From a virus: 26,532 bases of DNA. This document shows positions 8,526 through 24,983 of this stretch, piece by piece. A program made the position numbers and the translations under genes. The notes below the pieces were generated by a model. It was not told the origin of the DNA. It was given only the letters and a program-made list of their open reading frames with translations, and did no database searches. The DNA lies in the IMG/VR virus record IMGVR_UViG_3300044624_000920, positions 1 through 26,532 of that record. The stretch is one strand, 5' to 3'. Position 1 is the stretch's first letter; every line of letters starts with the position of its first letter.

Positions 8526-8786
8526 ATGACTACACGTACATTTAACGGCGACGCTAAAATCAAACTAACACAACTTATCAATGAAGGCATGGGCGTCATG
8601 CAAGAAATTGAAACATTGCGTGAGGGTCTTAATGACACAGTTAAGGCTATTGCAGAAGAACTAGAAATCAAGCCAAGCGTACTAAAGAAGGCAATTTCAG
8701 TTGCTCACAAGTCGCGCCTCGGTGAGACAAATAAAGAAAATGAAGAACTTAATACAATTTTGGAGACCGTTGGTAAGACTCTATAA
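8526..8786 (+). CDS. DsbA-like small dsDNA-binding protein
   Basis: An 86-residue, mainly helical, charged protein. The segment LREGLNDTVKAIAEELEIKPSVLKKAISVAHKS resembles, in length and pattern, the small T4 double-stranded DNA binding protein DsbA, which binds near late promoters: acid and basic helices, an E-L-x-x-K turn and a basic helix. An AAAGGAG ribosome site and a perfect sigma70 promoter lie in front. Its stop overlaps the polymerase start (TAATG), so the two are translated together. The resemblance is by eye and short proteins mislead, so a generic DNA-binding or replication accessory role is the safe reading. Confidence 0.6.
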   Translation: MTTRTFNGDAKIKLTQLINEGMGVMQEIETLREGLNDTVKAIAEELEIKPSVLKKAISVAHKSRLGETNKENEELNTILETVGKTL

Positions 8787-11503
8787 TGAGTTATGTTGAC
8801 GCAATTCACGACCGTGACTCTGACAAGATTGTTGTCGTAGAGCGCACACCTTCTGGTAAGAGAACTTATCAGGAACATCCCACAAACTATACATTTTACT
8901 ATAGTGATCCTAAGGGCAAGTATCGCAGTCTTTATGGAGATTCTGTCTCACGTTTCAGTACACGAAAGCGTACTGAATTCGAAAAGGAAAAGCGCATTCA
9001 CTCAAACAAGAAACTGTTTGAAAGTGATGTGCCGGTAGTTTTTAGATGTTTATCAGAAAACTATCTAAAAGCAGAACCTCCTAAACTTCATACTTGCTTT
9101 TTCGATATTGAGGTGGACTTTGATCCAGTAAAGGGTTTCAGTCCCACTAGTGACCCGTTTAACCCAGTAACTGCTATCAGTTGCTACTTAGATTGGCTTG
9201 ACCAATGTGTTACTCTAGTCATTGCTCCCAAACATATGACACCAGAGACAGCACAAGAGATTGTCAACGAGTTTGAGAATACAATGTTATTCACAAATGA
9301 AAAGGAAATGTTTGACGTTTTCTTTCAGTTGATTGAAGATGCAGATGTATTAACTGGCTGGAACTCAGAGGGCTATGATATTCCTTACATGGTAAATCGT
9401 GTTACACGTGTGATGAGTAAGGATGATACTCGCAAGTTCTGCTTGATGGGTCAACTTCCTAAGCCTAGAGAATATGAACGATTCGGTAAGAGTGAAACAA
9501 CTTATGACTTAGTAGGTCGTATTCACTTGGACTATCTACAGTTGTATAAAAAGTACAACTATGAATCACGACACAGTTATAAACTAGATTCTATCGGTGA
9601 GATGGAAGTTGGTGAAAACAAAACTGTGTATGAGGGTACTCTTGATCAGTTGTATAACAAAGACTTTAAAAAGTTCATTGAATACAACAGACAAGATACA
9701 ATGTTGTTGGTAAAAATTCATAACAAACTTAAGTTCTTAGACCTTGCTAACGCACTGGCTCATGAAAATACAGTGTTGTTGCCAACAGTTATGGGTTCAG
9801 TTGCTATGATTGAAATGGCAATTATGAATGAAGCGCATGAACGTGGTTTAGTAGTTCCTGATAAAAAACGAAAGGGTTCAAATGACGAAGACGTACAGCA
9901 GGCAGCAGGTGCCTATGTTGCTACTCCCAAAAAGGGAATTCACGAATGGGTCGGTGCAGTCGATATCAACTCACTCTATCCGTCAGCAATCCGCGCACTC
10001 AACATGGCGCCAGAGACCATTGTTGCTCAGGTCAGACAAACACTCACTGACAAATACATGCTTGATAAGGGACTGAAACTAGCACAAGAAAAGAAACGTC
10101 ATAAAGACGGCGATGATGCAGTTACAGGTTCTATCTTGTGGGAAGGTTTGTTTGGTGCATTAGAGTACACCGCAATCATATCACAGGAACGTGGCACTAT
10201 GCTAACAGTTGACTTTGAAGATGGTCGTAGTGTAGAAATGTCTGCGGCTGAAATCTGGAAGTTAGTGTTTGATAGTCATAAGCCCTATATGTTATCAGCA
10301 AATGGTACAATCTTTACATATGAGAAAGAAGGTGTCATTCCAGGTCTATTGACTCGTTGGTATTCAGATCGTAAGGTCATGCAAAAGAAACTAAAAGAGT
10401 CTACTACTGATGAGGATCGTGAGTACTGGGATAAACGTCAGTTGGTTCGTAAGATTTTGCTTAACTCAGCATATGGTGCATTGTTGAATGAACATTGTCG
10501 TTTCTATGACAAACGTATTGGTCAATCAGTTACATTAACTGGTCGTCAAATTGTTAAGCATATGATGAGTAACATCAATGAAACAGTTTCGGGAATCTAT
10601 ACACATGATGGTGATGCGATTGTGTATGGTGATACTGACTCTTGTTATTTCAGTACGTGGCCTATTCTTAAAGAGCAGATTGCAAAGGGTGAACTTGAGT
10701 GGAGTAAAGAAACTTGTATTGGACTATACGATAGTATTGCTGATACAGCAAACGAATCGTTCCCTGCATTCATGGAAAAGGCATTTCATGCACCTCGCAA
10801 GAATGGTGAAATCATTAAGGCTGGTCGTGAACTAATCGGTGATCGTGCTATCTTTATTACTAAAAAGCGTTATGCTATCAATATCTTTGATAAAGAAGGT
10901 AAGCGCAAGGATAAGGATGGTAAGAAGGGTGACATTAAGGCAATGGGTCTTGACTTGAAACGTGCAGATACTCCCAAGTATGTGCAAGAATTCTTGCTAA
11001 GTGTATTGTCAATGGTCATTCAAGAGGGTAAAGGTCGTGATGATGTAATCGAAGCAGTAAAAGACTTTAAGCGTATATTGACTGCACAAGATAGTTGGAC
11101 TAAAGGTTCTCCAAAGGGTGTTAACAAACTTACATACTATGGTGACTTAGAAGCAAAGAGTTCAACTGGTCGAGCGAACATGCCCGGTCACGTTCGTGCG
11201 GCATTGAACTACAACTACTTACGTAGAGTAAACAGTGACAACTATAGTCAATCTATTGTTGATGGTATGAAAGTTATTGTTTGCAAACTAAAGCCTAATC
11301 CACTAGGCTTTACAAGCGTAGCATATCCTACTGATGAACTACGATTGCCACAATGGTTCTGTGACTTGCCCTTCGATGATGCGGCAATGGAACAAACATT
11401 GGTTGATGAAAAGATTAACAACTTGTTGGGTGTACTTGATTGGGATATTCGTAGTAATACTAATACTAATTCAACATTCGATGATTTGTTTGATTTCGGT
11501 TAA
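8786..11503 (+). CDS. 43: T4-type family B DNA polymerase (gp43)
   Basis: A 905-residue replicative polymerase, close to the roughly 900 residues of T4 gp43. The proofreading exonuclease motifs are intact: FDIEVDFD (Asp107, Glu109), GWNSEGYDIPYM (about 191) and YNRQDTM (about 299). The polymerase motifs follow in order: VDINSLYPSAIR (about 392, motif A), KILLNSAYGA (about 556, motif B) and YGDTDS (about 614, motif C with two catalytic Asp). The last residues, TFDDLFDFG, match the C-terminal clamp-binding peptide of the T4/RB69 polymerases. There is no intein and no frameshift. It copies phage DNA in complex with the clamp encoded just downstream. The start overlaps the upstream stop, and the gene shares the consensus promoter at 8474. 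Confidence 0.97.
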   Translation: MSYVDAIHDRDSDKIVVVERTPSGKRTYQEHPTNYTFYYSDPKGKYRSLYGDSVSRFSTRKRTEFEKEKRIHSNKKLFESDVPVVFRCLSENYLKAEPPKLHTCFFDIEVDFDPVKGFSPTSDPFNPVTAISCYLDWLDQCVTLVIAPKHMTPETAQEIVNEFENTMLFTNEKEMFDVFFQLIEDADVLTGWNSEGYDIPYMVNRVTRVMSKDDTRKFCLMGQLPKPREYERFGKSETTYDLVGRIHLDYLQLYKKYNYESRHSYKLDSIGEMEVGENKTVYEGTLDQLYNKDFKKFIEYNRQDTMLLVKIHNKLKFLDLANALAHENTVLLPTVMGSVAMIEMAIMNEAHERGLVVPDKKRKGSNDEDVQQAAGAYVATPKKGIHEWVGAVDINSLYPSAIRALNMAPETIVAQVRQTLTDKYMLDKGLKLAQEKKRHKDGDDAVTGSILWEGLFGALEYTAIISQERGTMLTVDFEDGRSVEMSAAEIWKLVFDSHKPYMLSANGTIFTYEKEGVIPGLLTRWYSDRKVMQKKLKESTTDEDREYWDKRQLVRKILLNSAYGALLNEHCRFYDKRIGQSVTLTGRQIVKHMMSNINETVSGIYTHDGDAIVYGDTDSCYFSTWPILKEQIAKGELEWSKETCIGLYDSIADTANESFPAFMEKAFHAPRKNGEIIKAGRELIGDRAIFITKKRYAINIFDKEGKRKDKDGKKGDIKAMGLDLKRADTPKYVQEFLLSVLSMVIQEGKGRDDVIEAVKDFKRILTAQDSWTKGSPKGVNKLTYYGDLEAKSSTGRANMPGHVRAALNYNYLRRVNSDNYSQSIVDGMKVIVCKLKPNPLGFTSVAYPTDELRLPQWFCDLPFDDAAMEQTLVDEKINNLLGVLDWDIRSNTNTNSTFDDLFDFG

Positions 11504-11578: not shown

Positions 11579-12310
11579 ATGAAAGATAATTTACAAGACT
11601 TGATTCAGCATACACATGGTCTAGGGGTCGTTGACCTTATTAAGATTTTTGGTACTGACCAAGAAACACAGATTGCGGCAATCGCAGAAGATAAGTCAGT
11701 TGTGGTGACTGGCACATTCAAGACACCACTAGCAGACTTCATCGGTACGTTCGGTATGCCTAATCTAGCAAAGTTGAAGACTATTCTAGGATTCGATGAC
11801 TATGATGATAAGGCTATCATCAATGTCACACGTGTCAACAAAGATGGAGTAGATACACCAACTACTATTCACTTTGAAACTTCATCCGGCGATTTCGTAA
11901 ACGATTATCGTCTAATGTCAAAGACAATCATTGAGGAAAAGGTACGCAACGTAACATTCAAGGGTGCGGCTTGGAACGTTGAGTTCGAACCAACTGTTGC
12001 GGGTATCATGCGTCTTAAGAAGCAGGCTTCTGCTAACAGTGAAGAAAACAACTTCACTACTAAGACAGACAATGGTGATCTAAAGATTTTCTTTGGTGAC
12101 CCATCAACTCACAGTGGTAACTTTGTGTTTCACACTGGTGTAACTGGTGCACTATCCCGTCAATGGCAGTGGCCTGTAAAGGTCTTTCTTGCTATCATGG
12201 ATCTACCGGGTGACAAGATTGTTAAGATCAGTGATGCAGGTGCAGCCGAAATTACTGTTGACAGTGGTCTAGCAACATATCGTTATCTACTTCCTGCACA
12301 AGCAAAATGA
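11579..12310 (+). CDS. 45: Sliding clamp (gp45-like)
   Basis: A 243-residue protein in the size range of T4 gp45 (228). Sequence similarity is weak, but the layout fits a two-domain clamp fold: an N-terminal part with VVVTGTFKTPLADFIGTFGM and KLKTILGF, resembling the gp45 DLNGFLGILSLV helix region, and a C-terminal part with VFLAIMDLPGDKIVKISD followed by a final strand near YRYLLPA. Its position directly after gp43 and ahead of a modification gene supports a replication role. The trimeric ring would hold polymerase, and possibly the DpdA-like enzyme, on DNA. An AAAGGA ribosome site and a sigma70-like promoter precede it. A different small replication protein cannot be fully excluded. Confidence 0.75.
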   Translation: MKDNLQDLIQHTHGLGVVDLIKIFGTDQETQIAAIAEDKSVVVTGTFKTPLADFIGTFGMPNLAKLKTILGFDDYDDKAIINVTRVNKDGVDTPTTIHFETSSGDFVNDYRLMSKTIIEEKVRNVTFKGAAWNVEFEPTVAGIMRLKKQASANSEENNFTTKTDNGDLKIFFGDPSTHSGNFVFHTGVTGALSRQWQWPVKVFLAIMDLPGDKIVKISDAGAAEITVDSGLATYRYLLPAQAK

Positions 12311-12357: not shown

Positions 12358-13905
12358 ATGGAACAAGTTAACCTTTCAGATAAACATAAACCCGACTGGG
12401 CATTATTCTTACCTGCAGTAAGTTCATTCTTTATTGCTGGCTTAGGTAAACAACGTGCAGGCGAAGACTATTTTCCACAAGCACGTATCCCTGCACAGTT
12501 CAACGGTGATGTTGAATGTTTAAACTTTTTAAACAGTAAAGAAGGGTTGTATACTTACAAGTGGGGTTTATATTCTGCTGGTCATGCTAACTTAGACACT
12601 ACAAAGAATGATCCATGTGAATCTATTGTACGTGATAGAGAGCAAGGAACATTCATGCTGGGTGACTCAGGTGGATTTCAAATTCTTAAGTGTCAATGGC
12701 CTGCTGACTGGAAAGATCCTAACTGTCCTCGTGCAATGAAGAAGCGTATTGAAGTTCTAAAGTGGATGGATACATACATGGATTATGGCATGTGTCTTGA
12801 TATTCCATCACAATCACTAAGTACGTTTCATATCAAGGATCCAAAGACAGGTAAATCTGCACATGGTATCAGTACGATTGAAGAAGCGATTAGTGCAACA
12901 CATATCAATAACGAATACTTTATTAAAAATCGTAACGGCAACTGTAAATTCTTAAACGTATTGCAGGGTCGTAATCATACACAAAGTGATGATTGGTATG
13001 AAGAGATGAAGAAGTATTGTGATCCAAACATCTATCCCGATAATCATTTTAACGGCTGGGCGTTTGGTGGTCAAAATAAGATTGACGTTGAACTAATGCT
13101 AACTCGTTTAGTTGGTATCATTCATGACGGACTATTGCAAGAAGGCAAACATGACTTGATTCACTGTTTAGGTGTATCGATTATGGAATATGCAGTAGTG
13201 TTTACTGATATTCAACGTGCTATTCGTAAGTATCATAATCCAAATCTACAGATTACGTTTGACTGTGCAAGTCCATTCTTTAGTGCGGCTAAGGGTCTAG
13301 CATACTTTAACAATAGCATTGAACACGGTAAGAAGTGGGCATACAGCATGGAAAAGACGGCTGAAAACAAAGATTATGACAAAGATAATCGGAAATTCAG
13401 TGTTGCTGTATTACAAGATGGTATTCACAAAGTGTTTGCAGATAGTCCAGTAACTGACAGAATGGTAATGAAGGACCTTTGTTATCGTGGTCAAGGCTTT
13501 ATTGGTCAACATGGCAAAGAAACTAAAACAAGTTGGGATACATTATCTTATACACTATTGCAAGCACATAATGTGTATCAACATATTGTGGCAGTGCAAG
13601 AAGCCAATCGTCAATATGAACAGGGTTTGATGCCAAAGATGGTTATGAATAAGTTTGATGATAATCATTTGGGTGTTGTTATTGACGAAATCTTTAGTTT
13701 GAAGGATCGTCAAAAGAGTTTAGACTTGATTAAGCATCACAGCAAACTTTGGACACAGATGCAGTCTGGTAGTCAGGGCTTCTCTGGTAAGAAGACTGTC
13801 AATGCTATGACTATGTTTGATCAATTGTTTGATGTTCAGGCTGAACCCGAATATGATGAAGTTATTGAAGACAGCGATGATCTTATGGCAGAAATTGCTG
13901 AATAA
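12358..13905 (+). CDS. dpdA: DpdA-like 7-deazaguanine DNA transglycosylase
   Basis: A 515-residue protein with the tRNA-guanine transglycosylase fold: GDSGGFQ (102-108), LDIPS (147-151), VLQGRNH (201-207), GWAFGGQ (233-239), HCLGVS (269-274) and FDCASP (301-306), whose Asp302 corresponds to the Tgt nucleophile. I see no CxCxxC zinc cluster of canonical Tgt. It sits in a phage with folE, queD and queE, so it most likely belongs to the DpdA group that swaps guanine in DNA for a 7-deazaguanine and protects against host restriction. Its acidic tail contains MFDQLFDV (486-493), much like the polymerase clamp-binding peptide. It directly follows the clamp gene and is probably co-transcribed with it. 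Which deazaguanine is inserted cannot be told from the sequence. A tRNA substrate is less likely. Confidence 0.85.
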   Translation: MEQVNLSDKHKPDWALFLPAVSSFFIAGLGKQRAGEDYFPQARIPAQFNGDVECLNFLNSKEGLYTYKWGLYSAGHANLDTTKNDPCESIVRDREQGTFMLGDSGGFQILKCQWPADWKDPNCPRAMKKRIEVLKWMDTYMDYGMCLDIPSQSLSTFHIKDPKTGKSAHGISTIEEAISATHINNEYFIKNRNGNCKFLNVLQGRNHTQSDDWYEEMKKYCDPNIYPDNHFNGWAFGGQNKIDVELMLTRLVGIIHDGLLQEGKHDLIHCLGVSIMEYAVVFTDIQRAIRKYHNPNLQITFDCASPFFSAAKGLAYFNNSIEHGKKWAYSMEKTAENKDYDKDNRKFSVAVLQDGIHKVFADSPVTDRMVMKDLCYRGQGFIGQHGKETKTSWDTLSYTLLQAHNVYQHIVAVQEANRQYEQGLMPKMVMNKFDDNHLGVVIDEIFSLKDRQKSLDLIKHHSKLWTQMQSGSQGFSGKKTVNAMTMFDQLFDVQAEPEYDEVIEDSDDLMAEIAE

Positions 13906-14859: not shown

Positions 14860-15616
14860 TGTAGTTGTAATTACGGGAGGATTTGACCCTCTTCATAGTG
14901 GCCACTTAAGTTATATTAAAGCGGCTGCTGATTTGGGTCAAGTCCTTGTAGTAGGTGTAAACAGCGATGACTGGCTTACTCGCAAAAAGAGTAGGGCATT
15001 CATGCCGTTTATAGAACGACTAGCAATCATCAAAGAAATCAAGTATGTTAATCATGCTATTAGTTTTGATGATTCAGATGGTAGTGGTAAAGACGCTATC
15101 AACTGGGCACGTAAACAATTCCCTGACTCAAAGATTATCTTTGCTAACGGCGGAGATAGAACTGAAATGAATATCCCTGAAATGGATATCGAAGACGGTA
15201 ACATAGAGTTTATCTTTGGTGTAGGCGGAACTAATAAAAAGAATTCAAGTAGTTGGATTCTTGAAGAATGGAAAGCCCCAAAGACATTGCGTTCATGGGG
15301 ATATTATCGTATACTGCATGAATATGGTAGTGCAGTGAAACTTAAAGAACTAACAGTAGAGCCAGGCAAGTACTTAAGTATGCAACGGCATGAACAACGT
15401 GCAGAGTTTTGGTTTGTTGCAGAAGGTGTTGCATCAGTATACACTGTAAATAGTTCAACTGATGTTGAAATAGTAGGTATGTATACAGAACATCAATATA
15501 TGCATATCAAGACTGGTGCATGGCACCAGTTAGCAAATGAAACTGACAAACCATTAAAACTTATTGAAATTCAATATGGTACTAACTGTATTGAAGAAGA
15601 CATTACGAGGAAATAA
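14840..15616 (+). CDS. Nucleotidylyltransferase-cupin fusion (sugar nucleotide enzyme)
   Basis: A 258-residue two-domain protein. Residues 1-145 are a cytidylyltransferase-like domain: GGFDPLHSGH (13-22) is the HxGH nucleotide-binding motif, and TNKKNSSSW near 132-140 fits the second binding loop. This family makes CDP-glycerol, CDP-ethanolamine or ADP-heptose. Residues 150-258 match the cupin domain of type II mannose-6-phosphate isomerases: SWGYYRIL, VEPGKYLSMQRHEQRAEFW, AWHQLANETDKPLKLIEIQ and EEDITRK. Such a pair could isomerise a sugar phosphate and activate it. I choose the ATG at 14840 over the TTG just before it. The next gene, a glycosyltransferase, begins two bases after the stop. 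Exact substrate unknown. Confidence 0.82.
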   Translation: MQNLGFDVVVITGGFDPLHSGHLSYIKAAADLGQVLVVGVNSDDWLTRKKSRAFMPFIERLAIIKEIKYVNHAISFDDSDGSGKDAINWARKQFPDSKIIFANGGDRTEMNIPEMDIEDGNIEFIFGVGGTNKKNSSSWILEEWKAPKTLRSWGYYRILHEYGSAVKLKELTVEPGKYLSMQRHEQRAEFWFVAEGVASVYTVNSSTDVEIVGMYTEHQYMHIKTGAWHQLANETDKPLKLIEIQYGTNCIEEDITRK

Positions 15617-15617
15617 A

Positions 15618-16805
15618 ATGCGCAAATTATTTTATATGGGTTTAGAACCTTATAAGGATCGGTATACACTTCAGTTAACTGACTGGAACGTAGAAGTGTT
15701 TAAGAAACGTGGGATTGATTATGTAATCGTTCCCGGTGATACACTTGATGCAAGTCGCACTATTGTGACAGGTCAAGTACTTGATGCACATGGTCGTTCA
15801 TACTTTAGTATGAGTCAGATGATGAATCTTGTTAAGATGATGCGTGAAGGTAAAGTCACTGGCGAAGATGTAATTTATTTTGAAGATATGTTTCAGCCAG
15901 GCATTGAAAGTCTTCCGTATATCATCGATCAGATTCCTGAAAAGATGCGTCCTCGTATCTTTGTTCGTTGTCTAGCACAAAGTATTGACCCAGATGATTT
16001 TGTACACGTATGGGGTATGGAGAAGTGGATGGGTCACTATGAAAAGTTAGTTAATGAGTTTGCAGATGGTGTGCTTGCTAGTAACGAAGAAATGGTAGCA
16101 CACATGAAGATTGCAGGTTGGACTGCACCCATCTATAATATCTCAGGTCTAGCATTTGGTAAGGATGAAGTTCGTCGCCGTGTACTTGACAGCGATCAAG
16201 ATATTAAGATTTTTGATGAGCGTCATATGCGTGTTGCGTTTGCCGCACGTTGGGATCAAGAAAAACAACCTGACTTTTATATGGACCTAATTGAAGAATG
16301 GTTCAAACGTGATCCTAAATCAGGGGTAGAGTTTGCTGTCTTTACTGGTTCAGTATTGCGTAGTAACAACTCTAGTTACATGGAACGTACTAAGCGTTTA
16401 CAAGAAGAAGGTAAACTTAAAGTTTATGAAAATCTTGATAAGACACATTACTATTTGTTATTGAATGATTCACGTGTTCTATTCAATTGTGCGTTGCAAG
16501 ATTGGGTAAGTAATACAGTAAGTGAAGCAGATAGTTTGGGTTGCAATGTATTGTTTCCAGCATATCGCAGTTTCCCAGAAACATTTGCTAATGACCATGA
16601 GCGTCTATATGTTCCCTGGTCAATCGATGATGCTATGAACAAACTAGATAAGTTACTACTAGTACAGCATCAAAATGTAGGCAAGATTAGTGATCACACT
16701 GATGGCACAATTGATCGTATTTGCAACATCATTGAAGGTCGTGGTCAGCATCTATTGCGTATGAGTACAGACTATCGTAAATACAATAGGGAATCAAAGT
16801 ACTAA
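15618..16805 (+). CDS. GT-B type glycosyltransferase
   Basis: A 395-residue protein with the two-lobe GT-B layout. The N-lobe includes [19 protein letters not shown] and [11 protein letters not shown]. The C-lobe shows the order [29 protein letters not shown] and [37 protein letters not shown], whose Glu/Ser block matches the nucleotide-sugar site of glycosyltransferase family 1/4 enzymes. The start at 15618 has a GAGGAA ribosome site; an in-frame ATG at 15564 lies inside the upstream gene. It follows the nucleotidylyltransferase-cupin gene by one base, so it may use the sugar that enzyme activates. The acceptor (DNA base, virion protein or host glycan) is not visible from sequence. Confidence 0.82.
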
Positions 16806-18723: not shown

Positions 18724-19401
18724 ATGTCTTATAACAAAACTAAAACCGATCCAGAGTTGGGTCAACAAGTTCACGAACACCTCGTTAAGATGGGTGTTGA
18801 AACTCCAATCAAAAAGCGCAATCTAGACCGCAAAGATCAAATCGATATTATCGAAGGTAACTTTGCTGAAATCATGCGGGCCTTAGGATTAGACTTAACT
18901 GATGATAGTCTAATGGATACTCCAAAGCGTGTTGCTAAGATGTATGTCAACGAAATCTTTTGGGGTCTTGACTATGATGCGTTCCCCAAGTGTACTACAG
19001 TCGATAACAAGATGAAGTACAATGAAATGGTTGTAGAGCGTAATGTCAATGTGCAATCTAATTGTGAACATCACTTTGTTATCATTGATGGGTTAGCAAC
19101 TGTTGCTTATGTTCCTAAAGATAAGGTACTTGGTTTATCAAAGATCAATCGTATCGTTGAGTATTTCAGTAAGCGTCCTCAAATTCAAGAGCGTTTGACA
19201 GAACAAGTATTTCATGCACTGCAATTTATTCTTGAAACAGAAGATGTTGCAGTATTAATTGATGCACGACACTATTGTGTTAAGTCACGTGGTGTAGAAG
19301 ATACAGGCTCGTCAACTGTTACTGTTCGTTTAGGTGGTGGATTTAAATCTGATCCGGCGGCAAGAGCAGAGTTTCTTAGCATTGCTAGGATGGGTAAATA
19401 A
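18724..19401 (+). CDS. folE: GTP cyclohydrolase I
   Basis: A 225-residue FolE with all hallmarks: NCEHHFVIIDG with zinc ligands Cys114 and His117, VLGLSKINRIVEYF, RPQIQERLTEQ and HYCVKSRGVED with the third zinc ligand Cys185, ending LGGGFKSDPAARAEFL. It opens GTP to dihydroneopterin triphosphate, the first step towards 7-deazaguanines and also towards folate. QueD and QueE downstream, and DpdA upstream, point to deazaguanine synthesis. The N-terminal 35 residues are longer than in the compact bacterial enzymes. A GGAAGGA ribosome site precedes the ATG. Its stop abuts the next start with no gap. Confidence 0.96.
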   Translation: MSYNKTKTDPELGQQVHEHLVKMGVETPIKKRNLDRKDQIDIIEGNFAEIMRALGLDLTDDSLMDTPKRVAKMYVNEIFWGLDYDAFPKCTTVDNKMKYNEMVVERNVNVQSNCEHHFVIIDGLATVAYVPKDKVLGLSKINRIVEYFSKRPQIQERLTEQVFHALQFILETEDVAVLIDARHYCVKSRGVEDTGSSTVTVRLGGGFKSDPAARAEFLSIARMGK

Positions 19402-20749: not shown

Positions 20750-21253
20750 ATGACATATCAACCAGTAACATACAAGTACACAAGTACAAAAGAGTATCAC
20801 GATTCATTCCCTTGCGCATATCGTCAATGGCGTGCTGACTCTCACTGTAATCTAATTCATGGTTACAGTTTTTCAATCAAGGTATATTTCGGAACTGACA
20901 ACCTCGATGTTCGTAATTGGGCCGCTGATTACGGTGGTCTTAAAGAATTAAAGGGAATTCTTGAAGATCAGTTTGATCATACACTATTGGTTGCAGAAGA
21001 CGATCCTGAACTTGAAACATTCAAAATGTTGCAAGAAAAGAATATGGCTAAATTGACTATTCTTCCTGCACTAGGTTGTGAAGCACTTGCTGATATGATC
21101 TATAAGTTTATCAACACAGTTTATGTTCCTGACTATTATGGTCCTAGCGAAGCAGAACGTCTATGGTGCTATCGTGTAGAAGTTCGTGAGACACAGAGCA
21201 ACATGGCTTTCCGTGAAGGTCATAGGGAGTGGAATGAGGACTTGATCGGATGA
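20750..21253 (+). CDS. queD: QueD, 6-carboxytetrahydropterin synthase
   Basis: A 167-residue member of the PTPS/QueD family, which converts dihydroneopterin triphosphate to 6-carboxytetrahydropterin. Visible features: His17 as first zinc ligand, SHCNLIHGYS (31-40) with the catalytic-type Cys33 and zinc His37, AADYGGLKELK, FDHTLL and VEVRETQSNMA with the conserved Glu. In the usual HGH motif the second His is a zinc ligand; here it is Tyr39 (HGY), an unusual replacement. It has its own promoter and an AGGAG ribosome site. Its stop overlaps the next start (ATGA). The neighbouring folE and queE support the deazaguanine role over a pterin-only role. Confidence 0.9.
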   Translation: MTYQPVTYKYTSTKEYHDSFPCAYRQWRADSHCNLIHGYSFSIKVYFGTDNLDVRNWAADYGGLKELKGILEDQFDHTLLVAEDDPELETFKMLQEKNMAKLTILPALGCEALADMIYKFINTVYVPDYYGPSEAERLWCYRVEVRETQSNMAFREGHREWNEDLIG

Positions 21254-22010: not shown

Positions 22011-22184
22011 ATGACGTTATTTGATTTTATTGTTAAAGTAATAGTTCCTATTTTTGTAGTCGGGAGTGCGGCTTTTATTGTGTACGGTCAATATCTTCTT
22101 ATGAATGATCGTGATGAGTATAAACGTAAACATGGTGTCGATCCTTGGCGTCATGGTTGGGATAAAGATGAAAAACAAGATTAA
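22011..22184 (+). CDS. Small membrane protein
   Basis: 57 residues from the ATG at 22011, with an AAGGA site at 21998-22002; an in-frame TTG at 21990 overlaps the -10 box and is rejected. A membrane helix at about 5-27 (DFIVKVIVPIFVVGSAAFIVYG) is followed by a charged tail (RDEYKRKHGVDPWRHGWDKDEKQD). Its end overlaps queE by 17 bases. No family recognised. Confidence 0.6.
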   Translation: MTLFDFIVKVIVPIFVVGSAAFIVYGQYLLMNDRDEYKRKHGVDPWRHGWDKDEKQD

Positions 22185-23019
22185 AATTAGTGAACTGTTT
22201 TACAGTATTCAAGGTGAAGGTAGATACATGGGTGTGCCTTCTGTCTTTCTAAGAACATTTGGTTGCAATTTTACTTGCGACGGATTTGGTATGCCTAAAG
22301 GAGAAAAGTCTAATGAGCGACACATTGTTGCAAGCAATGCTAAGGGGTATAAGCAGTATAGAGATTTACCTCTTGTTAATACCGGTTGTGATTCTTATGC
22401 TAGTTGGGATCCTAAGTTCAAACATCTTTCTCCGTTTCTTACAACGGATAGTATTGCGGAAGCAATCGTTGAAACATTACCCTTCAAAGAATGGAGAGAC
22501 GAACATTTAGTCATTACCGGTGGTGAGCCACTACTAGGATGGCAGAAGAGTTATCCTGCATTACTTGCACATCCTCTTATGCGAGGTCTAAAAGAAATTA
22601 CATTTGAAACTAATGGTTCACAGAAGTTACATCAAGAATTAGTTGATTACTTGAATCTATGGCAATGGGCAATGCCCGGTCGTCAAGTTACATTTAGTGT
22701 TAGTACTAAGTTGAGTGTATCGGGAGAGCCTCGTAAGAAGGCAGTTAAGCCTAATGTGATTTGTCAATATGAAGAAGTTGGCTACGTATATCTTAAGTTT
22801 GTAGTTGCAACTCAGGAAGATGCAGACGAAGCACTTGAAGTAACTAACATCTATCGCAGTGCAGGATTCACTGGTCCTGTGTATCTTATGCCACTAGGTG
22901 GTGTCGAGAGCGTATACAAAATGAACAATCGTAACGTAGCAGACTTTGCTATGAAGAATGGCTTGCGTTACAGTGACAGATTGCAAGTTCCTCTCTTTAA
23001 AAATGAGTGGGGAACCTAA
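22168..23019 (+). CDS. queE: QueE, 7-carboxy-7-deazaguanine synthase (radical SAM)
   Basis: A 283-residue radical SAM enzyme that rearranges 6-carboxytetrahydropterin to 7-carboxy-7-deazaguanine. The start at 22168 gives the family opening KISELFYSIQGEG (substrate-binding QGEG). The cluster Cys are Cys33 and Cys37 (FGCNFTC); the third, Cys74, lies in TGCDSYASWD, which matches the usual WCDTxYA. The standard CX3CX2C has thus become CX3CX36C, with an insert containing GFGMPKGEKS. VITGGEPLLGWQ is the SAM-binding GGEP block, and TFETNGSQ and VTFSVSTKLSVSG follow. It is longer than most bacterial QueE (about 210-250). A catalytic variant is possible, but the family assignment is firm. Confidence 0.92.
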   Translation: MKNKIKISELFYSIQGEGRYMGVPSVFLRTFGCNFTCDGFGMPKGEKSNERHIVASNAKGYKQYRDLPLVNTGCDSYASWDPKFKHLSPFLTTDSIAEAIVETLPFKEWRDEHLVITGGEPLLGWQKSYPALLAHPLMRGLKEITFETNGSQKLHQELVDYLNLWQWAMPGRQVTFSVSTKLSVSGEPRKKAVKPNVICQYEEVGYVYLKFVVATQEDADEALEVTNIYRSAGFTGPVYLMPLGGVESVYKMNNRNVADFAMKNGLRYSDRLQVPLFKNEWGT

Positions 23020-23443: not shown

Positions 23444-23632
23444 ATGAATGCACATAACGATATTGAAACACATTTGGCAGCATATATTGCTGAAAGCACA
23501 AAGTTTGAAGCAGGTAATAGTGCCGCAGGTACACGTGCCCGCAAGGCTCTTGGTGAACTAGCAAAGGCTGTTAAGGCTCGCCGTAATGAAATTACCGAGA
23601 CTAAGAACGCACGTAAGGAAGCAAAGGCCTAA
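23444..23632 (+). CDS. Histone H1/Hc1-like small protein
   Basis: 62 residues: a short acidic/helical start, then FEAGNSAAGTRARKALGELAKAVKARRNEI and a Lys/Ala-rich tail (ETKNARKEAKA). This matches the pattern of the Hc1-type histone H1-like proteins found in many phages and bacteria, which bind DNA. An AAGGAGA ribosome site lies upstream. The following glycosyltransferase begins one base after its stop. DNA compaction or protection is the likely role; it could also be a general nucleoid protein. Confidence 0.65.
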   Translation: MNAHNDIETHLAAYIAESTKFEAGNSAAGTRARKALGELAKAVKARRNEITETKNARKEAKA

Positions 23633-23633
23633 G

Positions 23634-24983
23634 ATGAAATTGTATAGTAGGAGAATTGCTTTTCTAATTAGTGACCAGCACTTTATCCCTCACGGGGGTA
23701 TTGGGTCATTTGCAAAAGGCTTCACAGAAATGTGCAGTCGTTTGAATTGGAAGGTTGATATTGTTTTAGACAAGGCTCCTACTAACGATTTTGTTGAACT
23801 AATCAAGTCGCTAGGTGCAAACATAGTATACCCCGAAGAACCATTGCGTTACTCGGATCATACTGCTACGTTTGCATTTAGCGATACGATTAACTTTGAA
23901 AAGATTATTAACTTCCGCAAAGCAATATTACGTGCTTTTGAAACAAACATCTATGATATGATTGTTTGTAATACGCAGGAAGCAATGACTGCTAGTTATG
24001 CTATGACAGTGAACAAGTATATTCCTGTGGTGTTCTATACACATTTACATAGTATGATCTTCCGTGAAAGTCAGGGCAGTGATGTGTTCTTAGATTCATA
24101 TCACAACTTTTATAACAAGCATATGGAATTTACTGATATTATTATCGGTACACAAAGTCAAAAGAACATTGATGAACTCACGAAATACGGTGCAACTAAC
24201 TGTCATTTGTTACGCATGCCTATGAGTGAGCGGGGATTATTAGAACGTTATGCAGGTGTGCGTGAAGGTGTATTGTTCATTGGACGATGGGAAGAAGGCA
24301 AGAATCCAGAAGCATATATCCGTGTAATGAAAGAATGTAAATTACCTTGCCGCGTGATGACCAACGAGAGTGGTCGTAAGAAGTTTGAGAAAGCATTTGC
24401 AGAAGCAGGTATCACAGATTATGTCATCAAAGCAGGTATCACAGGGCAAGAAAAGGTAGCATTCATAAAAGGTTCTATGGCATTTTTCATGCCAAGTCTG
24501 CGTGAAAATTATCCATTCGCATTCCTTGAATGTCTAGCACACATGCCCTGTGTTGTATTAGACAAACAAGATTGGAGTGATAATTTTGATAGACAATACT
24601 TTCATAAGGTAAATATAAAGGATGCGGCGGAGTTGATCAAAACAATATACGGTGGTGATCAGTTAACTTCGGCACTTGACTATGTTAAGAAGTTAGATGA
24701 TGAAGTGGCACAAGGTTGGATTAAGTTCTTAGATGACTTTGTTGGTAAACGTAGCAATACAAACTCCGCAAAGATTAATAACTATGAAACAATCAAGTAT
24801 CGTGACTATATTACAGAACTAGATCGTAATCATTTAGCACGTGAGGACTTTGAATCAGTACTATCAAACAAGTATAAGTTTGTTAATGTTTGGTACACCG
24901 ATAATGATACGTATTTGTCAAAAGATCCTACGTTTAGACCAGTAGAAGAAATTAATAGTATTGGATTATTTGACGGATGGTAA
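23634..24983 (+). CDS. GT4-type glycosyltransferase
   Basis: 449 residues from the ATG at 23634; an in-frame ATG at 23586 lies within the histone-like gene. The N-lobe opens RIAFLISDQHFIPHGGIGSFAKGF, the donor-site Gly-rich loop typical of GT4 (GGIG). The C-lobe has GVLFIGRWEEGKNPEAYIRVM, VIKAGITGQEKVAFIKGS and FFMPSLRENYPFAFLECLAHMPCVVLD, where the ExxxFAFLE-like Glu pair contacts the nucleotide sugar. A further 100 residues after the fold (KINNYETIKYRDYI onwards) have no assigned role. Its stop is overlapped by the first methyltransferase start. It likely acts with the other sugar genes. Confidence 0.85.
   Translation: MKLYSRRIAFLISDQHFIPHGGIGSFAKGFTEMCSRLNWKVDIVLDKAPTNDFVELIKSLGANIVYPEEPLRYSDHTATFAFSDTINFEKIINFRKAILRAFETNIYDMIVCNTQEAMTASYAMTVNKYIPVVFYTHLHSMIFRESQGSDVFLDSYHNFYNKHMEFTDIIIGTQSQKNIDELTKYGATNCHLLRMPMSERGLLERYAGVREGVLFIGRWEEGKNPEAYIRVMKECKLPCRVMTNESGRKKFEKAFAEAGITDYVIKAGITGQEKVAFIKGSMAFFMPSLRENYPFAFLECLAHMPCVVLDKQDWSDNFDRQYFHKVNIKDAAELIKTIYGGDQLTSALDYVKKLDDEVAQGWIKFLDDFVGKRSNTNSAKINNYETIKYRDYITELDRNHLAREDFESVLSNKYKFVNVWYTDNDTYLSKDPTFRPVEEINSIGLFDGW

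Follow-up and report, generated by a model that had tools for sequence, protein, structure and literature searches.

A putative clamp-binding tail motif common to the DNA polymerase and a DpdA-like, predicted base-exchange enzyme in a large-phage lineage

Phage T4 proteins gp43, gp55 and gp33 carry interchangeable hydrophobic-acidic C-terminal tails that bind gp45 (PMC2988020), and the RB69 gp43 tail has been co-crystallised with gp45, lodged in a pocket that is hydrophobic and carries two basic residues (PMC3012046). The tails described here resemble these in the short hydrophobic-acidic motif, in the flexible tail and in the several clients that one clamp would serve; they differ in that the proposed client is an enzyme that modifies DNA by base exchange, and in that the motif mostly stops short of the end, lying about 20-45 residues ahead of it in most DpdA members. 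A clamp-held phage DNA-modifying enzyme is already on record. According to a 2026 study (PMC13216743, citing Sommer 2004), T4 alpha-glucosyltransferase co-purifies with gp45 and binds it, and expression level, not clamp binding, sets its share of glucosylation. It is, like the DpdA proposed here, a phage DNA-modifying enzyme interacting with the sliding clamp, and unlike DpdA in enzyme and chemistry, which are unrelated, and in that binding did not determine the modification share; the excerpts of that study consulted name no docking motif for it. Among eukaryotes, DNMT1 is one of the listed PCNA clients (PMC9690074). As a DNA-modifying enzyme brought to replicated DNA by a clamp it offers a parallel, but the PIP-box motif of PCNA clients has another sequence and DNMT1 is a eukaryotic methyltransferase. 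Phage DpdA and DpdA2 (Hutinet et al. 2019, PMC6884629) are, as here, enzymes of the tRNA-guanine transglycosylase (TGT) fold accompanied by FolE, QueD and QueE; no clamp is mentioned in that paper. A search of the open literature, with most subscription journals outside it, found no paper linking DpdA to a sliding clamp. An earlier, sequence-only reading of this DNA, whose author had not seen such a coupling described for DpdA, is to be amended in that the general idea of a clamp-held phage modifying enzyme was already there.

The window analysed is a stretch of 26,532 nt (IMG/VR record IMGVR_UViG_3300044624_000920, positions 1 to 26,532). It hosts, on the + strand, a family B DNA polymerase of 905 aa (8786-11503; Pfam DNA_pol_B 1.9e-41, phrog_262 5e-201), a predicted sliding clamp of the PCNA/gp45 type of 243 aa (11579-12310) and a DpdA-like protein of the TGT superfamily of 515 aa (12358-13905), assigned by fold and invariant columns. 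No Pfam or NCBIfam name was obtained for the clamp gene, its sole PHROG match has no assigned function, and a PDB sequence search with the clamp gave no match. The product is predicted to be a sliding clamp because its AlphaFold model (pLDDT 94.3) matches PCNA over 217-227 residues, with a Foldseek E of 5e-11 and VIA Z scores of 18-19. It shows a two-domain clamp fold within a size range of about 230-260 aa, and several residues of its C-terminus, YxYxLPA, are nearly invariant. A clamp homologue is found upstream of dpdA on the same strand, at less than 2 kb, in 231/231 loci featuring both, and polymerase, clamp and dpdA follow in this order on one strand in 218/218 loci where all were found, counts that are not independent since DpdA was the means of finding the loci and a good many of these are relatives of one another. 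The sequence-only reading had placed dpdA directly after a clamp gene, and had located TFDDLFDFG at the end of the polymerase and MFDQLFDV in the DpdA-like protein; fold and gene order bear out the former, and letters and coordinates of both tails proved exact.

The DpdA-like protein had no convincing sequence-family match in Pfam or PHROG, and a PDB sequence profile search with the DpdA alignment returned one chance match only. At E<=0.001 the PDB matches of its model are solely tRNA-guanine transglycosylases (TGT/QTRT chains), with a modest TM of 0.34-0.42 by query length, and this fold supports the identity first read from the letters. D103 (GDSGGFQ) and D302 (FDCASP), which we take to be the catalytic pair of TGTs, are invariant in 51 homologues. 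Downstream of dpdA, the window also encodes enzymes of the 7-deazaguanine pathway, all on the + strand: GTP cyclohydrolase I (FolE, 18724-19401, Pfam 4.9e-61), QueD (20750-21253, Pfam PTPS, phrog_2389 QueD-like) and the radical SAM protein QueE (22105-23019, phrog_2076 6e-54). The DpdA-like protein is predicted to exchange guanine for a modified base in phage DNA. QueC was not found among the window proteins scanned, nor in PA5oct or a 352-kb relative; it may be that an earlier pathway intermediate is inserted, or that the base depends on the host.

The putative clamp-binding motif of the DpdA-like protein, MFDQLFDV (residues 486-493), is singled out by sequence and conservation and encoded on the + strand at 13813-13836, ATGTTTGATCAATTGTTTGATGTT. 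It had been assigned to the C-terminal tail, and it does lie there, but not at the extreme end, as an acidic stretch of 22 residues follows. This stretch (13837-13902) features at its end a second conserved element, DSDDxM, replaced in distant DpdAs by LxxLE; the second element is predicted as a short helix. In a close set of 80 viral loci (L003-L082), at 76-100% identity to the window protein, MF[DNE]xLF occurs at the same position in 78, with L sometimes replaced by M or F, and the remaining two have the near variant KFDEFF or KFNELF (KF[DN]E[LF]F), so that the motif is not missing from close relatives. With wider scans, DpdAs of about 27-53% identity were recovered from PA5oct, from Vibrio phage 2.275.O and from roughly 150 uncultured phages, and the motif is retained at 27-50% identity as well. 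Matches came from alignment queries; viral scans with the single PA5oct or Vibrio 2.275.O DpdA protein gave none, and a scan of genome contigs yielded a single locus, on a contig of phage-like character within a MAG. The pattern F..[LMF]F is found inside the last 60 residues in 182/239 DpdAs, and in 32/47 after clustering at 70% identity. For comparison, the pattern occurs in 3.7% of shuffled tails, 0.3% of 60-aa windows taken from DpdA bodies and 1.4% of the tails of other ORFs of the same loci. By these sequence counts, the putative motif is far above chance. F491 is at least 90% conserved among 51 homologues of 30-87% identity. Many DpdAs outside the 182 bear near variants, such as NDLF, SFFE, HNLFDF and NDLFGW, and few DpdAs have truly lost the motif or depart strongly from it (L086, L100, perhaps L098, L099, L190, L212 and L230). 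In L100, L098, L099, L190 and L212, where the DpdA motif is lost or altered, the polymerase still keeps its own.

The clamp-type tail of the polymerase, TFDDLFDFG (11474-11500, + strand), is conserved in related loci. Polymerases of close loci end in STFDDLFSFG or near variants, and C-terminal [FLMIV]..[LMF]F is found in 219/225 polymerases of related loci. In the 352-kb relative (378 ORFs of at least 80 aa) and in PA5oct (340 ORFs), F..[LMF]F[DESG] occurs in the last 60 aa of PolB and DpdA only. Vibrio phage 2.275.O, with NNTDLFDW at the end of the polymerase and NNNDLFGW at that of DpdA, has three further proteins matching the regular expression, and exclusivity is weaker there. Variants of the tail go together. 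The polymerase ends FFEF and DpdA NEFFEF in L173 and L178; a polymerase with FFEF is accompanied by a DpdA with FF in 10 of 11 cases, and one with LF by a DpdA with LF in 89 of 90 (Fisher p 6e-12, without phylogenetic correction). The DpdA tree holds just four supported independent FF/LF contrasts, of which three agree, none disagrees and one is neutral, too few to reach significance. In a six-residue comparison, tail similarity is 19.1 for DpdA and polymerase of the same phage vs 15.7 for cross-pairs. A partial Mantel test with DpdA-core distance removed gave r 0.37 and p 0.0005, the permutation leaving some phylogeny in. At the level of sequence, DpdA tails resemble the polymerase tail of their own phage after this crude correction for relatedness. 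What was found is a hydrophobic-acidic motif, set in a predicted disordered tail and common to the polymerase of the same genome, itself a likely clamp client.

The tails of the T4 and RB69 polymerases and of the T4 late-transcription proteins dock onto their clamp, and by analogy docking onto the phage clamp is to be expected of the DpdA tail. FDQLF would be a short linear motif of the disordered tail that docks with the clamp encoded by the same phage, in the peptide pocket predicted to receive FDDLFDF of the polymerase as well. Docking would keep the base-exchange enzyme on clamps that sit on DNA being copied or just copied, and a 7-deazaguanine would take the place of guanine shortly after synthesis, ahead of the encounter of unmodified DNA with host nucleases. 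We assign to this reading, in which the DpdA tail docks at the polymerase-tail pocket and tethers base exchange to replicating or new DNA, a probability of roughly 0.78. A clamp-binding function of the motif, as proposed from the letters, is well supported on the computational side by conservation reaching distant DpdAs, disorder, near-exclusive sharing with the polymerase, matched tails, gene order and clamp fold; action of DpdA behind the fork is a reasonable supposition. The tail may alternatively bind the clamp and load DpdA on idle clamps, or serve as a general tether, raising local concentration with no bearing on replication timing. We hold this as a lesser possibility, resting on the same motif evidence: in T4, gp45 serves late transcription away from the fork by way of like tails (PMC2988020), and the binding of T4 alpha-glucosyltransferase to gp45 did not set the modification share in vivo (PMC13216743).

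FxxLF might instead be a structural or regulatory piece of DpdA, involved in oligomerisation, autoinhibition or DNA contact, and resemble the polymerase tail by chance. In the close family the motif does come after a conserved basic/glycine stretch, SGSQGxSGKKTVNA; in distant DpdAs this flank is fully changed, and FxxLF itself stays. The AlphaFold2 model of the DpdA-like protein is confident up to about residue 469, with core blocks mostly above 90, and pLDDT falls below 50 at residues 470-489 and 491-515, a short helix being predicted at 483-490. Because of these values the motif is placed in a predicted free tail of 46 residues (470-515; 13765-13902, + strand), outside the folded core. It is moreover terminal or nearly so in L066, L173, L178, L139, L170 and Vibrio phage 2.275.O. 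With the disorder, the changed flank, the terminal position in several lineages, the likeness to the phage's own polymerase tail and the near restriction to PolB and DpdA proteome-wide all against it, such a role is improbable. Given that the polymerase gene is a neighbour, the partner of the DpdA tail could be the polymerase or the clamp loader; this is very unlikely, as one motif borne by both DpdA and polymerase indicates a partner that the two share rather than the polymerase itself, and the clamp tails of the T4 polymerase and transcription factors have the same hydrophobic-acidic layout. Gene conversion between close neighbours, without function, would fit the 16/21 nucleotides identical in the two motifs of the window, and is hardly credible, since across many loci motif codons change synonymously with the amino acids kept, and a like tail is found on a glycosyltransferase about 10 kb away.

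The motif is missing in DpdA2 of the T4-like phage nt-1 and in DpdAs of the GR7B group, hence it is dispensable for DpdA function in general. In nt-1, dPreQ0 amounts to about 0.1% of G (PMC6884629). Comparison of the window protein with nt-1 DpdA2 gave an hhalign probability of 9%, with the DSGG, LD and FD segments aligned, and tblastn found no match to nt-1. The sequence-only reading had suggested a comparison with DpdAs of T4-like phages; as the T4-like nt-1 DpdA2 lacks the motif, the latter belongs to another large-phage lineage. The putative motif is a trait of one large lineage, a widespread group of large phages in which dpdA is found behind polymerase and clamp. The DpdA of Sinorhizobium phage Phosso (L084:5968-7617) ends IVEGLF, recalling bacterial beta-clamp motifs, and those of its relatives end IGGIFS; a DnaE-like gene is present in Phosso, and the stretch read gave no match to PolB.

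A tail resembling that of the polymerase, NSIGLFDGW (24957-24980), is found at the C-terminus of a predicted GT-B (GT4-like) glycosyltransferase encoded in the window (23586-24983, + strand), for which Pfam Glycos_transf_1 scored 6.6e-6, just under the cut-off. Homologues were collected from L302-L381 and G001:219308-220636, and show a conserved terminus of the LF[DE]xL type; LF[DESQGV] is present in the last residues of 38 of the 39 distinct homologue tails listed, as in SLFEGL, GLFEF, NLFSFE and ELFQW. PolB and the glycosyltransferase homologue are the sole proteins of the 352-kb relative in which the pattern occurs anchored at the C-terminus. The glycosyltransferase is a probable candidate for a second client of the clamp, and DNA may be what it glycosylates. 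We consider, tentatively, that the clamp might act as a hub of hypermodification, DpdA and glycosyltransferase both carrying polymerase-like clamp tails. Guanine would then be exchanged, and the new or another base glycosylated, on freshly copied DNA.

Other GT-B-like proteins are encoded downstream of dpdA in the window (15564-16805, without a Pfam match) and beside dpdA in PA5oct (L083:7617-8678), which suggests that further modification enzymes are hosted in the region. A dpdA neighbour in Vibrio 2.275.O encodes a protein (L085:6621-7733, AUS03050) starting MFNELFDFND, with the motif at the N-terminus; a clamp motif in N-terminal position is known from T4 RNase H. Small proteins with FxxLF-type ends were found in L189 (11512-12138, STFQNLFAYDN), L119 (13166-13552, HFDSLFEVIQ) and L026 (12242-12661, FFNSLFTIA). 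These had no Pfam match, and may be further clamp clients. Terminal matches of the NLFLNLLQLFG type in other ORFs were set aside as a membrane-protein-like family.

The tail common to polymerase and DpdA may serve as a search key, and as such it flagged the glycosyltransferase as a likely second client. The two-phenylalanine motif provides a simple test of DpdA-clamp coupling, and since this arrangement also occurs in cultured phages of the PA5oct group, the question can be addressed in the laboratory. Docking onto the clamp is proposed as the way in which a transglycosylase acting genome-wide would find fresh DNA fast enough to protect it from restriction.
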